Part shown: positions 3,228 to 13,531 of the stretch, piece after piece
How positions within the stretch are numbered: the first letter of the stretch is position 1
Layout of the letters: each line of letters begins with the position of its first letter
Assembly (NCBI GenBank): GCA_024278555.1
Contig: JAJRSX010000061.1
Span: forward strand, 1-13,980
Reading direction: 5' to 3'
DNA: 13,980 nucleotides
DNA from: a bacterium
GTDB lineage: Bacteria; CG2-30-53-67; CG2-30-70-394
Position numbers and translations under genes: made by a program
Notes under the pieces: model-generated
Databases searched by the model: none
Seen by the model: the letters and a program-made list of their open reading frames with translations, nothing else
Told to the model about the DNA's origin: nothing

Positions 3228-3258
3228 TCACCGCAGAGACGCAGAGGACGCAGAGGGA
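3228..3258 (+). repeat. Left arm of 31-bp inverted repeat
   Basis: The arm reads tcaccgcagagacgcagagg and continues to the end of cgcagaggga at 3258. It is the exact reverse complement of 3654-3684. It lies just past the TAG stop (3263-3265) of the enclosed gene. Confidence 0.95.
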
Positions 3259-3262
3259 TGAT

Positions 3263-3646
3263 CTACTCCTCCAAGCCGAGCACCCGTCGTCTGATGCCGT
3301 CTTTGAGTAAGGGTACATTGAAGTTGATGAGGAGCCCGACTTGCCAGCCGCCCAATTTTAGATAGGTGAGAAGCTGGGCATCGTGAACTGGAAGCAGCTC
3401 CTCCACCGTCTTGATCTCCACGACCACAGCCTGCTCCACAAGCATGTCGAGACAATACCCACAATCGAGTTGGACCCCCTTGTAAAGCACCGGGAGCTGT
3501 TTCTGCCGCTCGAAGGAAAGCTCTCGTGAGGCCAGCTCACGGCAGAGACACACCTCATACGCAGATTCGAGCAACCCTGGTCCCAAGACCCGGTGCACCT
3601 CGATCGCCGAGCCGATGATGGCGCTCGTCACCTCTGCCAACTCCAT
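3263..3646 (-). CDS. GxxExxY family protein (PD-(D/E)XK nuclease-like)
   Basis: A complete 127-residue member of the GxxExxY family, normal length about 125. The naming motif is G24-LL-E27-SA-Y30, within [18 protein letters not shown]. It is followed by a PD-(D/E)XK-like core: D67 in CLDMLV, E77-I-K79 in VVVEIKTVE, and [11 protein letters not shown] with Q91. The family is grouped with PD-(D/E)XK folds, but its cellular role is not established, so nuclease activity is a structural inference. The ATG at 3646 follows GGGAGGG with 5 bases between, and part of this ribosome-binding site is supplied by the edge of the flanking inverted repeat. Its base composition is visibly less GC-rich than its neighbours, consistent with transfer. 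It separates two glycosyltransferase genes and probably has no part in glycan synthesis. Confidence 0.93.
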
Positions 3647-3653
3647 CGATCCC

Positions 3654-3684
3654 TCCCTCTGCGTCCTCTGCGTCTCTGCGGTGA
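3654..3684 (-). repeat. Right arm of 31-bp inverted repeat
   Basis: Exact reverse complement of 3228-3258. It starts 7 bases upstream of the enclosed gene's ATG and ends 3 bases before the TGA (3688-3690) of the upstream glycosyltransferase. Read on the minus strand, its last bases plus the following aggg form the Shine-Dalgarno of the GxxExxY gene. Confidence 0.95.
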
Positions 3685-8179: not shown

Positions 8180-8274
8180 GGGCCGTGGGGTCACGGGCCG
8201 TGGGGTCAGAAGTGCGGGCCGCGGGCCGTGGGGTCAGGTCTTGTCTTGCCACATTTCTTGGGGCCGTGGGGTCA
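8180..8274. repeat. gggccgtggggtca repeats, four copies
   Basis: The 14-mer gggccgtggggtca occurs exactly at 8180-8193, 8195-8208, 8223-8236 and 8261-8274. The third copy runs into the longer gtcaggtcttgtcttgcc unit, so the two families are nested: the shared ggggtca appears to be the seed of both. Confidence 0.9.
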
Positions 8275-8431
8275 TGAAGAAACTGGGGTCAGGTCTTGTC
8301 TTGCCACATTTCTTGCATGAAGAAACTGGGGTCAGGTCTTGTCTTGCCACATTTCTTGAAGCAAGAGTCTGCCCATTCGGCTTGGGTTGCCGAAGAAATG
8401 TGGCAAGACAAGACCTGACCCCAGTTTCTTC
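8230..8431. repeat. REP-type cluster: direct and inverted copies of a ggggtcaggtcttg unit
   Basis: Three direct copies of a 31-bp unit starting ggggtcaggtcttgtcttgc occur at 8230-8260, 8285-8315 and 8328-8358. The last two are part of a perfect 43-bp tandem duplication, 8273-8315 and 8316-8358. A 39-bp exact inverted copy of most of that unit is at 8393-8431, 34 bases after the third copy, so copies three and four could form a very long hairpin or cruciform. A short extra duplication of cagtttcttcc follows to 8442. The ggggtcaggtct word resembles sequences I associate with REP-associated tyrosine transposases. No such gene is in the window, so the link is inference. Confidence 0.9.
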
Positions 8432-8447: not shown

Positions 8448-8461
8448 CGCCGCCGTCACCC
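8448..8461. repeat. 14-bp dispersed word over the HD gene stop codon
   Basis: The word cgccgccgtcaccc is identical to 8160-8173. It contains the TGA stop (8456-8458) of the HD-domain gene. With its preceding catga it also matches 6441-6459 at 18 of 19 positions. Confidence 0.7.
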
Positions 8462-9826
8462 AAGGCCGTACAGAACCTGCGCCGCCAGTTTTCCGAGAAC
8501 CGCGTCATGGTCGTGGTCGAGGGCAAACAGCCGGCAGTGGAGGATCTTTGCCGGGATGTAGTCGAACTGGTCGTGCAGCGCCGCGGTGGAGACGCGGCCG
8601 GTGGTGGGGTCGAAGACGTAGATCTGCCGGTCACCCATCTGTAGGGGGTTGAGCGGCCGGGTGTCCTTGGTGGCGAGGTCGATGCGAAAGGGGAGGCCGT
8701 GGAGGGCGGCGGGGAGGCGATCGCGGATCTGCACCTCCATCTTCGCCGGGTCGAGCGGCGGCGTCGCGGCGGTGAGGTCGCGGCTGGAGACGATGGTGTC
8801 GTAGGCCATCTTCCACTTCACGTCGCGACCGAGGATCCGCCCCCACTCGCGGCCGAGGCCGCGCCGTACGCCGCTCTCCGATCCGCTCCACCGCCGCACC
8901 TCCTCGATGAGCGACCACTCGGTGATCCGCAGATAGCCGTCGAGATCGTCCGCCGGGCTGGAGAGCCAGATCTCCTCCATGGTGGCGGGAAAGACCTCGC
9001 GCAGGTGGAGGTCGATGGCCCGCGTGGTGCGGTGGAAGTAGACGTTGGAGTAGAGGTAGAGGCGGGCGTTGAGGAACATGTTGAGCGCCGCCAGCCCGGC
9101 CCGGTGCAGGGTCAGCCCCGCCTCGGAGAAGAAGAGGTAGTGGATCAACCGGTCGACGTCCACCGGCCCGATGGCGACGCCGCACATGTAGGAGTCGCGC
9201 AGGACGTAGTCCATGTTGTCGGCGGTGAAGACGCCGGCGAGCAGCGGCTTCAGCGCCACCACCCACGGCGGGATCCGCTCGCCGCCCCCCGCCTCCTTGG
9301 CGATGAGGAAGGCGACCCACGCCGGGTCGAGCTCCTCGCCCGGGTCGAAGTCGCCGTTCTGGCTGCGGCGCAGCTCGGCGATCACCGGCGCCAGGGGGCC
9401 GGTGATGATCATCCCGCCGACCTGCTCGTGGGTGAGGGAGAAGCGGGCGAGGTGGTTCTCCTCGAAGAAGTGGGCGAAGGGGCCGTGACCGATGTCGTGG
9501 AGCATCCCCGCCACCCGCAGGAGCTCCTCCACCAGGGCGCTCGAGGGGCAGTCGGCGTGATGGCGGGCGAGGGTCGGGTAGAGGTGGCGGGCGAGGCGGC
9601 CGGCGAGGTGCATCGCCCCGAGGGAGTGCTGGAAGCGCGAGTGCTCCGCCCCGGGGAAGACCCAGCGCGCCGACTGGAGCTGGTAGATGTAGCGCAGCCG
9701 CTGCATCCACGGGGTGTCCAGCAGGGTCTGCTCGCACGCCTCCCCGGGCCGATCCGGCACGGTGAGCTGGATGTACCGGTGGATCGGATCGGCGATCAGG
9801 GAGACGCCGTGGTACGGGTGGGGCAT
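8456..9826 (-). CDS. HD-domain phosphohydrolase (dGTPase/SAMHD1-like, COG1078 type)
   Basis: A 456-residue HD-superfamily metal-dependent phosphohydrolase. Metal and active-site residues are visible in order: H67 in RFQHSLG, the H110-D111 doublet in GMLHDIGHGPFAH (with H114 and H119), and D206 in TADNMDYVLRDS. This is the pattern of COG1078 proteins, relatives of bacterial dGTP triphosphohydrolases and SAMHD1. The N-terminal DPIHRYIQLT and TPWMQRLRYIYQLQSARWVFPGAEHSR is also characteristic of the group. Substrates are known for few members; dNTP hydrolysis is a family-based guess. The ATG at 9826 is the natural start of the family; no good Shine-Dalgarno is visible. It is a lone gene with gaps on both sides, and its 3' end abuts the REP-type cluster. 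Confidence 0.92.
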   Translation of the reverse strand: MPHPYHGVSLIADPIHRYIQLTVPDRPGEACEQTLLDTPWMQRLRYIYQLQSARWVFPGAEHSRFQHSLGAMHLAGRLARHLYPTLARHHADCPSSALVEELLRVAGMLHDIGHGPFAHFFEENHLARFSLTHEQVGGMIITGPLAPVIAELRRSQNGDFDPGEELDPAWVAFLIAKEAGGGERIPPWVVALKPLLAGVFTADNMDYVLRDSYMCGVAIGPVDVDRLIHYLFFSEAGLTLHRAGLAALNMFLNARLYLYSNVYFHRTTRAIDLHLREVFPATMEEIWLSSPADDLDGYLRITEWSLIEEVRRWSGSESGVRRGLGREWGRILGRDVKWKMAYDTIVSSRDLTAATPPLDPAKMEVQIRDRLPAALHGLPFRIDLATKDTRPLNPLQMGDRQIYVFDPTTGRVSTAALHDQFDYIPAKILHCRLFALDHDHDAVLGKLAAQVLYGLG

Positions 9827-9938: not shown

Positions 9939-10065
9939 CTATCAGCGATCAGCCCTCAGCAACCCCTCTCCCGCGGCCATGGCGCGAGGCCACGGACCAC
10001 CGGCAGGAGCCGGCTCCAACCAAGGTACCGAGAGCTATTCGCTGAAAGCTGTTAGCTGAAAGCTA
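9939..10065. repeat. Degenerate gatcag / gctgaaagct word repeats
   Basis: Near the left end is a run of gcgatc and cagcgatcag words (cggctatcagcgatcagc). At the right end gctgaaagct is repeated exactly at 10041-10050 and 10055-10064, with gtta between. The second copy overlaps the TAG stop of the response-regulator gene (CTA at 10063-10065). The roughly 236-base gap between the two genes shows no open frame I can support. Confidence 0.65.
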
Positions 10066-11361
10066 CCCCTCCAGCTTCCGCCGCAGCCGCTGGCGGCTCA
10101 CCTCCAGCAGCCGGGCGGCCGCCGACTTGTTGTACTTCACGTGGCGCAGGACCGCCTGGGAGTAGGCGCGGTCCATCTCCTTGAGGGTGACGAAGCGGTG
10201 CACGGTGAGGATCTGGGTGGAGTCGTCCTCGGGCGGGTTGTGGAGCTCGGGCGGCAGGTCCTTGAGCCCCACCTCGCCGTCACCGTGGAGGATGACGGTG
10301 CGCTCCACCAGGTTACGCAGCTCGCGCACGTTGCCCTGCCAGCGGTACTCGGAGATGTGCGACAGGGCGCGCTTGCTGAACGGCCCCACCTTGCGGCTGT
10401 CGCGCCGGTTGAACTCGGCGAGAAAGGCATTGATCAGCAAGGGGATGTCGTCGCGCCGCTCCCGTAACGGCGGCAACAGGAGGTGGCCGCCGGCGAGCTT
10501 GTAGGAGAGCTCCTCGGAGAGCTTGCCCTCGGCCACGGCGAGCTGCAGCCGCATGCGCGAGCTGGCGATCACCCGCACCCCGTCGGGGACGACGTTCGGG
10601 TCGCCGAGGACGGTGACCAGCCGGTCCTGGAGGGCCGGGGGCAGGGCGGTGATACCGTCGATGAACAGGGTGCCGCCGTTGGCCTCGCTCACCATCCCGG
10701 CGGTGCCGTTGTCGGTCCCGAAGAGGGTGGCCGCGAGACAGCCGGCATCGTAGGCGGCGACGCGCAGGGAGATGAAGGGACGGTCCCCGTCGGCGGTGGC
10801 GAGGTGGATGGCGTGGGCGAGGTGGTGCTTGCCGGTGCCGCTCTCCCCCTCGATGAAGGTCGGCAGGGTGGGATCGGCCGCCAGCCGCTTCGCCGCCTCG
10901 ATCACCTTGCAAAACGCCGGGTCGGCGCCTACCAGGGTGTCGAAGCCGTAGCGCGCCACGTCCTCGCGGTACCGCTGCATCACCCGCTGGCGCAGATTGT
11001 GCGCCTCCACCGCGGTGAGCAGGGCCGCCTGTACCTTGTCGATGTCGACCGGCTTGTTGAGGTAGTCGAAGGCGCCGTGCTTCAGCGCCTGCACCGCGGT
11101 CGCCGAGTCGCCGGCACCGGTGAGGATGATCACCGGGATCTGCCGGTGGCCTTTCTGGAGCTGCGCGAGGACCTCTTCACCGGTCATCCCGGGCATCCGC
11201 CAGTCGAGGAGGATGACATCGGGCGGCGACTCCTCCACCGCGGCCAGCGCTGCCTTGCCTGACTCCTCGGTGCGGACGCGAAAGCCGAGGTCCTCCAGGA
11301 GGTAGGAGAGGCTGGAGAGGATGAGCGGCTGGTGGTCGACGAGCAGGACTTGCGGTTTCAT
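10063..11361 (-). CDS. NtrC-type response regulator with degenerate AAA+ domain, no GAFTGA
   Basis: A 432-residue receiver, AAA+ and Fis-HTH protein. The receiver (about 4-115) keeps the phosphoacceptor D53 (LLDWRMPGM), T81 and K103, but the acidic pair is D9-H10 instead of two acidic residues. The AAA+ domain (about 143-370) keeps Walker A GESGTGK (172-178), PPLRERRDDIPLL and WQGNVRELRNLVER. It differs from true sigma-54 activators where it matters. LFG is followed directly by TDNGTAGMVSEAN and GGTLF, some 8 residues short and without GAFTGA. Walker B reads TLFIDG, with G236 in place of Glu. The usual FREDLYYRL reads LSEELSYKL. The C-terminal HTH (NKSAAARLLEVSRQRLRRKL, 411-430) is intact. 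Sigma-54 activation is therefore unlikely; it may repress, or act on sigma-70 promoters, as HupR and TyrR do. The ATG at 11361 overlaps the kinase stop (ATGA). Sequence assignment is firm, mechanism inferred. Confidence 0.93.
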   Translation of the reverse strand: MKPQVLLVDHQPLILSSLSYLLEDLGFRVRTEESGKAALAAVEESPPDVILLDWRMPGMTGEEVLAQLQKGHRQIPVIILTGAGDSATAVQALKHGAFDYLNKPVDIDKVQAALLTAVEAHNLRQRVMQRYREDVARYGFDTLVGADPAFCKVIEAAKRLAADPTLPTFIEGESGTGKHHLAHAIHLATADGDRPFISLRVAAYDAGCLAATLFGTDNGTAGMVSEANGGTLFIDGITALPPALQDRLVTVLGDPNVVPDGVRVIASSRMRLQLAVAEGKLSEELSYKLAGGHLLLPPLRERRDDIPLLINAFLAEFNRRDSRKVGPFSKRALSHISEYRWQGNVRELRNLVERTVILHGDGEVGLKDLPPELHNPPEDDSTQILTVHRFVTLKEMDRAYSQAVLRHVKYNKSAAARLLEVSRQRLRRKLEG

Positions 11362-12860
11362 GAGGTGACCTCGCGGATGGAAGTGTGAACAGGAGTGGGG
11401 AGGTGGATGGAGAAGGTCGTACCGCGACCCGGCGCGCTCTCCACCGCGACCTCGCCGTGGTGGTCTTGGACGATCCGTTGCACCAGGGCGAGGCCGAGCC
11501 CGCTGCCCTCGCCCCGGTGTTTGGTGGTGAAAAAAGGCTGAAAGATGTGCGGCTGGTCCTCGGCGGCGATGCCGCTCCCGGTGTCGCGGACCTCGATCCG
11601 CACCCCACCGGGGAGGCGCCTGGCGACGAGGTTCAGCACCCCGCCCCCCGCCATCGCCTGCACGGCGTTGAGGCAGAGGTTGAGGAGGACCTGCTCGAAC
11701 TGGTGGGGATCGATGACCGCGGTGAGCCCCTCCGGCTCGACCGAGATCGACAGGGTGACCCTGGCCTCTCCGAGCTGCGCCTCGATGAACGACGCCACCT
11801 GGCTGAAGAGGTCGCGGATGGCGACCTCCTGGTGGTGCGGCGCCCGCGGCCGGGCGTAATCGAGGAGGCTGTTGAGGAGCTCTTCCACCCGGGTCGTCTC
11901 GACCAGCATCCGCGCCACCGCCTCCTGCCGCTTGGGCGACAGGTCGCCCTGGTGCTGCCAGTGGCTGAGGGTGGCGACGATCCCGGTGAGGGGGTTGCGG
12001 ATCTCGTGGACCAGCCCCGAGGCGAGCTCGCCGATCGCCTGGAGCCGGTCGGCGCGACGCAGCCCCTCCTCCAGGGCGAGGCGCTCGCGGATGTCGCGGG
12101 CGAGGATGAGGAGCTCGCCGCCGAGGAGGGAGGCGCTCACCTCCACCGAGATCGCCTCCTGCCCGGCCCCACGCACCTTGCAGCAAAACTCCACCGTGCC
12201 CCGCCGCTGGAGCTCGCTGACCACCCGGCCACGCAGGGACGCGTACTCCTCAGAGACGAGAAAATCGACCGCCCGACGGGAGAGGAGCGCCTCTCTGTCG
12301 CAACCGAGGAGCCGGCAGGTCTGGCGGTTCGCCTCGGTGAAGCGGCCGCGCTTGTCGATCAGGCAGATGGCGTCGGCGGCGTGCTCCACCACCTCGCGAA
12401 AGCGGCGCTCGGAGTGGAGCAGAGCGGTCGCCTTCGCCTCCACCTCCTCGGTCAGCCCCACGGTCCGCTGCCGCAGGGCGATGCGCTCGGACCCCTGCGA
12501 GGCCACCGACGCCACCCGCGCCACCAGCTCGGCGGCATTGAACGGCTTGGCCAGGTAGTCGTTCGCCCCAAGGCGCAACCCCTGCGCCATGGAGACATCG
12601 TCGTGGTACTTGGCGGTGATAAAGAGGATCGGGACGTCCGCCAGGGCCGGCTGGCTGCGGATCCGCCGACACACCTCGAACCCATCCATCCCCGGCATAT
12701 GGACATCGAGGATGATGAGATCGGGGATCTCCTCATCGAGCCGCTGCAACGCCGCCTCCCCCGACGCCGCCACCGTCACCCGGTAGCCGGCGGACTCAAG
12801 GTTGCGGCGGTAGATCTCACGGTTGAGCTCGTCATCATCGACGACCAGGAGCTCGCTCAC
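11358..12860 (-). CDS. Receiver-PAS sensor histidine kinase
   Basis: A 500-residue soluble histidine kinase with no transmembrane segment. The N-terminal receiver (about 3-118) has acidic residues D8-D10, phosphoacceptor D52 (ILDVHMPGM), T82 and K105. A charged helical linker (about 125-150) leads to a PAS domain (about 151-258: FREVVEHAADAICLIDKRG to ILARDIRERL). The dimerisation/phosphotransfer domain has H285 in LVHEIRNPL. The ATPase domain has the N box (N394, N398), the G1 box DTGSGI (426-431) and G2 GSGLGLALV (452-460), so it should be active. The start is GTG at 12860 within a GTGA overlap with the queD stop, and it ends in an ATGA overlap with the response regulator. That regulator is its obvious partner. 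A receiver on the N-terminus implies input from another kinase or phosphotransfer protein. The signal is unknown; a cytoplasmic cue is likely. Confidence 0.95.
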   Translation of the reverse strand: MSELLVVDDDELNREIYRRNLESAGYRVTVAASGEAALQRLDEEIPDLIILDVHMPGMDGFEVCRRIRSQPALADVPILFITAKYHDDVSMAQGLRLGANDYLAKPFNAAELVARVASVASQGSERIALRQRTVGLTEEVEAKATALLHSERRFREVVEHAADAICLIDKRGRFTEANRQTCRLLGCDREALLSRRAVDFLVSEEYASLRGRVVSELQRRGTVEFCCKVRGAGQEAISVEVSASLLGGELLILARDIRERLALEEGLRRADRLQAIGELASGLVHEIRNPLTGIVATLSHWQHQGDLSPKRQEAVARMLVETTRVEELLNSLLDYARPRAPHHQEVAIRDLFSQVASFIEAQLGEARVTLSISVEPEGLTAVIDPHQFEQVLLNLCLNAVQAMAGGGVLNLVARRLPGGVRIEVRDTGSGIAAEDQPHIFQPFFTTKHRGEGSGLGLALVQRIVQDHHGEVAVESAPGRGTTFSIHLPTPVHTSIREVTS

Positions 12861-13228
12861 GGCGCACCTCCCCGGTAGACACAGCGGGTCGTGCAGGTCT
12901 CGGCGATCTCCACCGCGGCGAGGCCCGGCAGGCGCGGGGCGAGCCGCTCCCACACCCACATCGCCAGGACCTCCGAGGTGGGGTTCTCCAGGCCGGGGAT
13001 CTCGTTGAGGTAGCGGTGGTCGAGGGCATCAAAGAGCGGCGCGAACGCCCGCTTGATCTCCGCGTAGTCGACCACCCAGCCGAGCTCCGGATCCACCTCG
13101 CCCGCCACCCGTACGGTCAGCCGGAAGCTGTGGCCGTGCAGCCGCGAGCACTTGTGGTCCGCGGGCAGGCGCGACAGACGGTGCGCCGCCTCGATCCGGA
13201 AGCTCTTTTCGATCTCCATCTTCGCCAT
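12857..13228 (-). CDS. queD: 6-carboxy-5,6,7,8-tetrahydropterin synthase QueD
   Basis: QueD converts 7,8-dihydroneopterin triphosphate to 6-carboxytetrahydropterin, the second step towards preQ0 and queuosine. The 123-residue protein has the full set of family residues: zinc-binding H16 (FRIEAAHRLSRLP), H31 and H33 (LHGHSF), catalytic C27 (DHKCSRLHGH), D70-H71 in DALDHRYLN, and E110 in EIAETCTTRCVY. LENPTSEVLAMWVWERL is also typical. The ATG at 13228 is preferred; an in-frame ATG at 13219 would remove three residues. It is the first gene of the trio with the histidine kinase and response regulator, overlapping the kinase by 4 bases. No other queuosine genes (queC, queE, queF) are in the window. 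Confidence 0.95.
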   Translation of the reverse strand: MAKMEIEKSFRIEAAHRLSRLPADHKCSRLHGHSFRLTVRVAGEVDPELGWVVDYAEIKRAFAPLFDALDHRYLNEIPGLENPTSEVLAMWVWERLAPRLPGLAAVEIAETCTTRCVYRGGAP

Positions 13229-13235
13229 GGTTCAT

Positions 13236-13263
13236 ACTGTACCTGAAATTGACTCTGTAACAA
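13236..13263 (-). promoter_or_regulatory. Possible promoter of the queD operon
   Basis: In the AT-richer stretch before queD, the minus strand has TTGTTA (13263-13258), a 16-base spacer and TACAGT (13241-13236). These match the sigma-70 hexamers at 4 of 6 positions each. The transcript would begin almost at the ATG, giving a nearly leaderless message. Other pairings are possible further upstream (TTATAA near 13300). Weak evidence. Confidence 0.25.
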
Positions 13264-13531
13264 AAGGTACCATTCAACTTTTCACGCAACCCCTTATAAA
13301 CACGCAATATCGCCACCCATTTCGAGGCCGGATTGGGGTGGACGCCCTCGCCCCCCCGGAGGAGCCCCTTCGCCCCTGCCGACGGGAGGGGCGCCGACAG
13401 CCCCCCCTGTGGAAAGAAATTCGGTTACCTGAAAGATTGGGGTAGCCCTAGATCGTCGGCGCCGATCTCCGCGCCGGGGGCAGAGGGCTTGAAGAATGAG
13501 GAAGATCGAGGAACCCGACCGGCGTGGCCTC

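Follow-up and report, generated by a model that had tools for sequence, protein, structure and literature searches.

What does a response regulator built like a sigma-54 activator do once the parts that touch sigma-54 and hydrolyse ATP are missing? The question is raised by a gene in the window (the whole stretch of DNA analysed here, 13,980 nt), which an earlier note had described as an NtrC-type regulator that has lost GAFTGA, the Walker B glutamate and the arginine-finger segment. The open reading frame, its coordinates and every motif quoted there are present in the sequence. Pfam and fold both place the protein, by descent, among the NtrC-type response regulators of the PF00158 family, with a receiver (REC), a sigma-54-activator AAA+ domain, a lid and a Fis-type helix-turn-helix (HTH) that all score above the Pfam cut-offs. 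The domain limits listed here come from Pfam and from helices in the predicted model.

10063..11361, minus strand: degenerate NtrC-type response regulator, 432 aa (open reading frame and Pfam PF00072, PF00158, PF25601, PF02954); REC, residues 5–114; linker helix, 107–138; AAA+ core, 143–299; lid, 300–381; Fis-type HTH, 393–431
10825..10848, minus strand: intact Walker A GESGTGK (residues 172–178), then H179 replacing Glu
10654..10722, minus strand: residues 214–236, with loop 1 (216–228, 13 residues, without GAFTGA) followed by GGTLFIDG, in which G236 stands at the Walker B Glu
10576..10629, minus strand: shortened loop 2, residues 245–262 (18 versus 26 residues)
10495..10569, minus strand: residues 265–289, with sensor I IASSR, where R269 replaces Asn, and finger segment LSEELSYKL, with Ser for R282 and Lys for R288

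Our motif census is based on an alignment of 157 activator-like proteins, with Aquifex NtrC1 and Brucella NtrX as reference sequences and with HupR, TyrR and E. coli NtrC and ZraR left out. Loop 1, counted from LFG to GGTLF, has 13 residues in the regulator and its ortholog, as against 21 in 148 of the 157 proteins and 22 in three; only four other short loops occur (two of 12 residues, one of 16, and that of Brucella NtrX with 17). This agrees with the shortening from about 21 residues first reported, and the loop reads TDNGTAGMVSEAN, without the GAFTGA expected of a functional sigma-54-dependent bacterial enhancer-binding protein. Loop 2, absent from the earlier list of losses, is eight residues short as well (18, Q245 to V262, versus 26–27 in 155/157). 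Both loops contact sigma-54 and promoter DNA (PMC7175178) and, because both are truncated, the regulator would be expected to exert no push on sigma-54.

The determinants of ATP hydrolysis are missing too. At Walker B, the reported change of LDE to IDG is seen as G236; D-G is found only in the regulator and its ortholog, and D-E in 155 of the 157 proteins. The Walker B glutamate forms the glutamate switch together with a switch asparagine (PMC7175178), which here is R200, and the sensor I asparagine is R269; arginine at either place is confined to the same pair, and both changes go beyond those first listed. R282, a finger arginine, is serine in this pair only. The other finger arginine, which contacts the gamma-phosphate (R299 in NtrC1, R168 in PspF; PMC7175178), corresponds to residue 288 by NtrC1 numbering, and is lysine in the window yet arginine in the sister species. 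The claim of a lost finger segment was therefore half right, and on these residues a complete loss of the arginine fingers would be an overstatement. Two further changes had escaped the first description: the glutamate that neighbours Walker A, E179, is His or Cys, and the ESE preceding LFG is gone. G236, R200, R269 and S282 together break the set of Walker B DE, switch Asn, sensor I and fingers associated with hydrolysis. Across the AAA core, the regulator keeps 27 of 51 strongly conserved columns (F281 and R282 of the finger segment being among those lost), whereas every other protein keeps at least 76% (median 96%). The 157-protein alignment thus bears out a loss of both sigma-54-contact and ATP-hydrolysis residues, and the extent of the losses, judged on sequence, is far beyond chance or sequencing error. 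A protein of these families without GAFTGA, a full loop 2, the Walker B Glu, the switch Asn and the sensor I Asn is expected neither to hydrolyse ATP nor to remodel the sigma-54 polymerase.

The sole ortholog found is that of Nitrospirae bacterium CG2_30_70_394, the sister species, with 84% identity, the same losses and the same neighbours. As this is an independent assembly, a sequence error or local mutation is ruled out. Outside their own genome, the regulator and its kinase turned up in this genus mate alone (the name CG2-30-70-394 also serves as a phylum placeholder in GTDB, PMC8728215); the conservation record is shallow because the gene is carried by two species of one genus. Relatives' orthologs with all motifs intact, which the earlier note had named as evidence against its reading, were sought and not found in other genomes of the class, 386 genomes, 84,980 species genomes or viral contigs; the scan of the 84,980 relied on two receiver-domain peptide patterns and so could miss distant orthologs, and one ortholog search scored the best four candidates per genome. 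At the DNA level, the pattern GGTLF[ILM]DG matches in 6 of the 386 genomes, with AAA activators at only two sites, namely the regulator and its ortholog; GGTLF[ILM]DE matches in 226 of the same genomes.

The order queD, kinase, regulator, HD protein is the same in both species (blastn synteny), with 84% nucleotide identity across the queD–kinase–regulator stretch.

13229..13268, minus strand: conserved leader directly before the queD start, with a -10-like CAGGTACA(G/A)TATGAACC (alignment with the sister species)
12857..13228, minus strand: gene of the QueD / 6-pyruvoyl tetrahydropterin synthase family that opens the same-strand set (PF01242, blastn synteny)
11358..12860, minus strand: soluble sensor kinase REC-PAS-HisKA-HATPase, upstream of the regulator (Pfam)
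8456..9826, minus strand: HD-domain protein, downstream of the regulator, a conserved neighbour (PF01966, synteny)

The kinase stop overlaps the regulator start (ATGA), and the kinase is 82–83% identical to its counterpart. This partner (window 11358–12860) also has a receiver domain, at its N terminus, and may therefore itself be switched by another kinase. The leader at 13229–13268 could conceivably be a housekeeping-type promoter, perhaps near-leaderless; a scan for the consensus sigma-70 promoter gave no match, the leader included. The HD-domain gene may or may not be co-transcribed with the regulator. A sigma-54-type promoter pattern is no commoner in the window than chance predicts (16 matches with up to two mismatches, 11.9 expected), a count that has no bearing on the regulator's own targets. 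Elsewhere in the window, a GxxExxY-type PD-(D/E)XK open reading frame (3263–3646) lies within a perfect 31-nt inverted repeat TCACCGCAGAGACGCAGAGGACGCAGAGGGA at 3228–3684, resembling a small mobile element. A repeat of about 39–43 nt (GAAGAAACTGGGGTCAGGTCTTGTCTTGCCACATTTCTT) is present three times in direct and once in inverted orientation at 8218–8431, between the deacetylase and HD genes, and these repeats could form hairpins.

The host genome retains rpoN and more than 20 strong PF00158 matches. Among 20 other activator loci read there, Walker B D-E is present in 20/20 and most have GAFTGA or a close variant. With sigma-54 and many normal activators in place, the loss is specific to this regulator gene. 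Such company offers potential partners, and the regulator could be pictured as a dead subunit that joins mixed rings with a normal sigma-54 activator of the same genome, tuning or blocking it; in favour of such a role are the preserved AAA fold and lid together with one finger position, which is R288 in the sister species. We regard this as highly improbable: F281 and R282, core columns of the finger segment, are among those lost, and the protein comes with its own kinase and its own HTH.

Other departures from the canonical sequence occur in this genome and class. Another activator of the same genome (L202, G000:C162:24500-25900) has an odd loop 1 (GDPRGGRSGHRADLPTGGAIGRAR) and an intact Walker B. 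In another family of the class, tandem GAFTGA-less activators (L203:5051-7476, genome G003; related L204/L021 in G006) are flanked by biosynthetic genes and a nicotinate phosphoribosyltransferase-like gene. The first protein of the tandem is REC-AAA-HTH with a 12-residue loop 1, sensor II Arg changed to Thr and Walker B DE kept, and the second has AAA and HTH but no receiver, its Walker B reading LFLQE with Gln for Asp.

In the tree, the regulator and its ortholog form a branch of their own (length 1.59) apart from NtrX, which is placed elsewhere with 97% support. The regulator does not group with NtrX. Nor does the tree support a common origin with the other GAFTGA-less pair of the class (L142, L021), which keeps the Walker B Glu and both fingers. 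A grouping with L192 is weak (support 85, below the 95 mark, on a long branch) and is not relied on.

A gene so altered might simply be in slow decay, with the operon losing its regulator and the AAA core drifting. Nei–Gojobori comparison of the window with the sister species gives a whole-gene dN/dS of 0.090/0.42, about 0.21, with 0.09 for REC, 0.21 for the HTH and 0.31 for the AAA core; the regulator is under purifying selection. Its AAA core evolves fastest of 16 ortholog pairs shared by the two genomes, as drift would have it, at 79.0% identity (84.9–95.7% in the others) and a dN of 0.135 (0.027–0.099 in the other 15 pairs, where this is usually the best-conserved part and not, as here, the worst). 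Against this, dN/dS lies well below 1 in all domains, REC (91.5% identity) ranks on the better-conserved side of the set, neither species has a frameshift or stop in the regulator, the kinase is conserved too and gene order is kept. Taken together, these points leave decay highly improbable. By domain, dN is 0.043 for REC, 0.097 for the lid and 0.069 for the HTH, and the contrast with the core indicates that receiver and HTH are held and the AAA core relaxed but not free.

An AlphaFold2 model (22 sequences, mean pLDDT 84) retains the AAA fold. Its best whole-chain matches are NtrC4, NtrC1 and NtrX (Z 32–33); it superposes on the FleQ AAA domain with an rmsd of 1.8 Å over 236 residues and matches VpsR (7v2b) with a Z of 26, fold matches that do not amount to proof of activity. 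Within the AAA+ domain, the Walker A P-loop, the Walker B aspartate D235 and sensor II R346 are kept, as are 12/12 conserved lid columns. The receiver keeps 7/7 conserved columns and its Asp/Thr/Lys, and the HTH is retained; this combination of a loop 1 deletion with REC and HTH in place is shared with the GAFTGA-less, sigma-54-independent NtrC-type regulators (R. capsulatus NtrC, HupR, VpsR). One change falls in the receiver: the second acidic pocket residue is H10, a histidine seen there only in the window/sister pair among the 157 proteins, and it may weaken Mg2+ and phosphoryl handling. The initial view that the protein is not decaying at random fits these results, with losses common to the only ortholog, purifying selection and a predicted AAA fold.

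Why should the nucleotide site persist? The P-loop may still be a sensor, with ATP (or another nucleotide) acting as a ligand required for DNA binding or activation. The two species do not differ in Walker A, the Walker B Asp, the sensor II Arg or the lid columns, which is harder to explain if binding is useless, and there are reported precedents in R. capsulatus NtrC, with ATP binding but not hydrolysis, and in VpsR with c-di-GMP (PMC10274813). However, the E179 position beside Walker A is not constant (His or Cys), and folding alone may account for the retention of P-loop and lid. In FleQ and VfmH, which bind c-di-GMP, the motifs described are RxxxR, E/NxxxR and an arginine that directly follows Walker A (PMC10714721); read by eye from these descriptions, the regulator has NLVER and appears to have H183 in place of the post-Walker A arginine. 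We consider nucleotide sensing unlikely, if conceivable. A broader and equally doubtful proposal is that the AAA+ domain has become a wholly non-hydrolysing module with a new regulatory job, whether with ATP as sensed ligand or as an inactive member of rings formed jointly with a normal activator; it starts from the loss of both sigma-54 loops and four hydrolysis determinants in a protein whose P-loop, lid, receiver and HTH are under selection.

The reading that we favour, and hold to be probable on the sequence evidence, is that of a kinase-controlled, sigma-54-independent DNA-binding regulator in which the AAA+ domain serves as a non-hydrolysing oligomerisation scaffold, perhaps still binding ATP. 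Descended from a sigma-54 activator, such a protein would no longer remodel sigma-54 RNA polymerase. The linked kinase would phosphorylate D53 of the receiver, phosphorylation, acting by way of the linker helix and AAA+ domain, would alter how the protein dimerises or oligomerises, and DNA would then be bound by the Fis-type HTH, either repressing or recruiting the housekeeping polymerase. The scaffold probably still binds ATP, given the P-loop, the Walker B Asp, the sensor II Arg and the lid, and, with G236, R200, R269 and S282 in place of the hydrolysis residues, should not hydrolyse it. If true, the regulator is a separation-of-function protein produced by natural evolution: the motor has been removed from a sigma-54 activator, and the genome around it keeps sigma-54 and more than twenty further activator genes. 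Such a protein would show which AAA+ parts (P-loop, lid, receiver link) selection maintains after contact with sigma-54 and ATP hydrolysis have both been given up. It is also a caution for annotation, in that a PF00158 match alone leads to proteins of this type being wrongly labelled sigma-54 activators.

Known systems share parts of this pattern. Brucella NtrX (PDB 5M7N-5M7P) likewise has a short loop 1 without GAFTGA and matches the whole-chain fold (Z 32), but keeps the Walker B Glu, the switch Asn, both finger arginines and a full loop 2, and has a separate place in the tree. The canonical activators Aquifex NtrC1 and NtrC4 have the same domain order and are the best full-length structural matches (Z 33), whereas in NtrC1 every catalytic and sigma-54 motif is intact. 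TyrR and DhaR have no receiver domain. Compared by description, HupR, TyrR and DhaR are activators of the sigma-54 type without GAFTGA that work with sigma-70, a dependence that has been shown for all three (PMC3162934); the precedents first named, TyrR, HupR and Rhodobacter NtrC, are indeed documented (PMC3162934, PMC10274813). VpsR of Vibrio, a similar deletion case (PMC3162934) that acts with sigma-70 and is said to need no ATP (PMC10274813), has the same response-regulator architecture without GAFTGA; its identity in the structural alignment is only 25%. The NtrC proteins of R. capsulatus and Caulobacter are also REC-AAA-HTH proteins with a kinase partner and a loop 1 deletion, of eight residues in Caulobacter too. 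R. capsulatus NtrC, which acts with sigma-70, needs ATP binding and not hydrolysis, and Caulobacter NtrC needs its Walker A and B residues (PMC10274813). Both keep the nucleotide site that they need, whereas the regulator has lost the Walker B Glu and R282 along with the asparagines of the switch and of sensor I, and is also short in loop 2. The regulator takes a known trend unusually far, with many determinants gone together and the rest of the protein held by selection.
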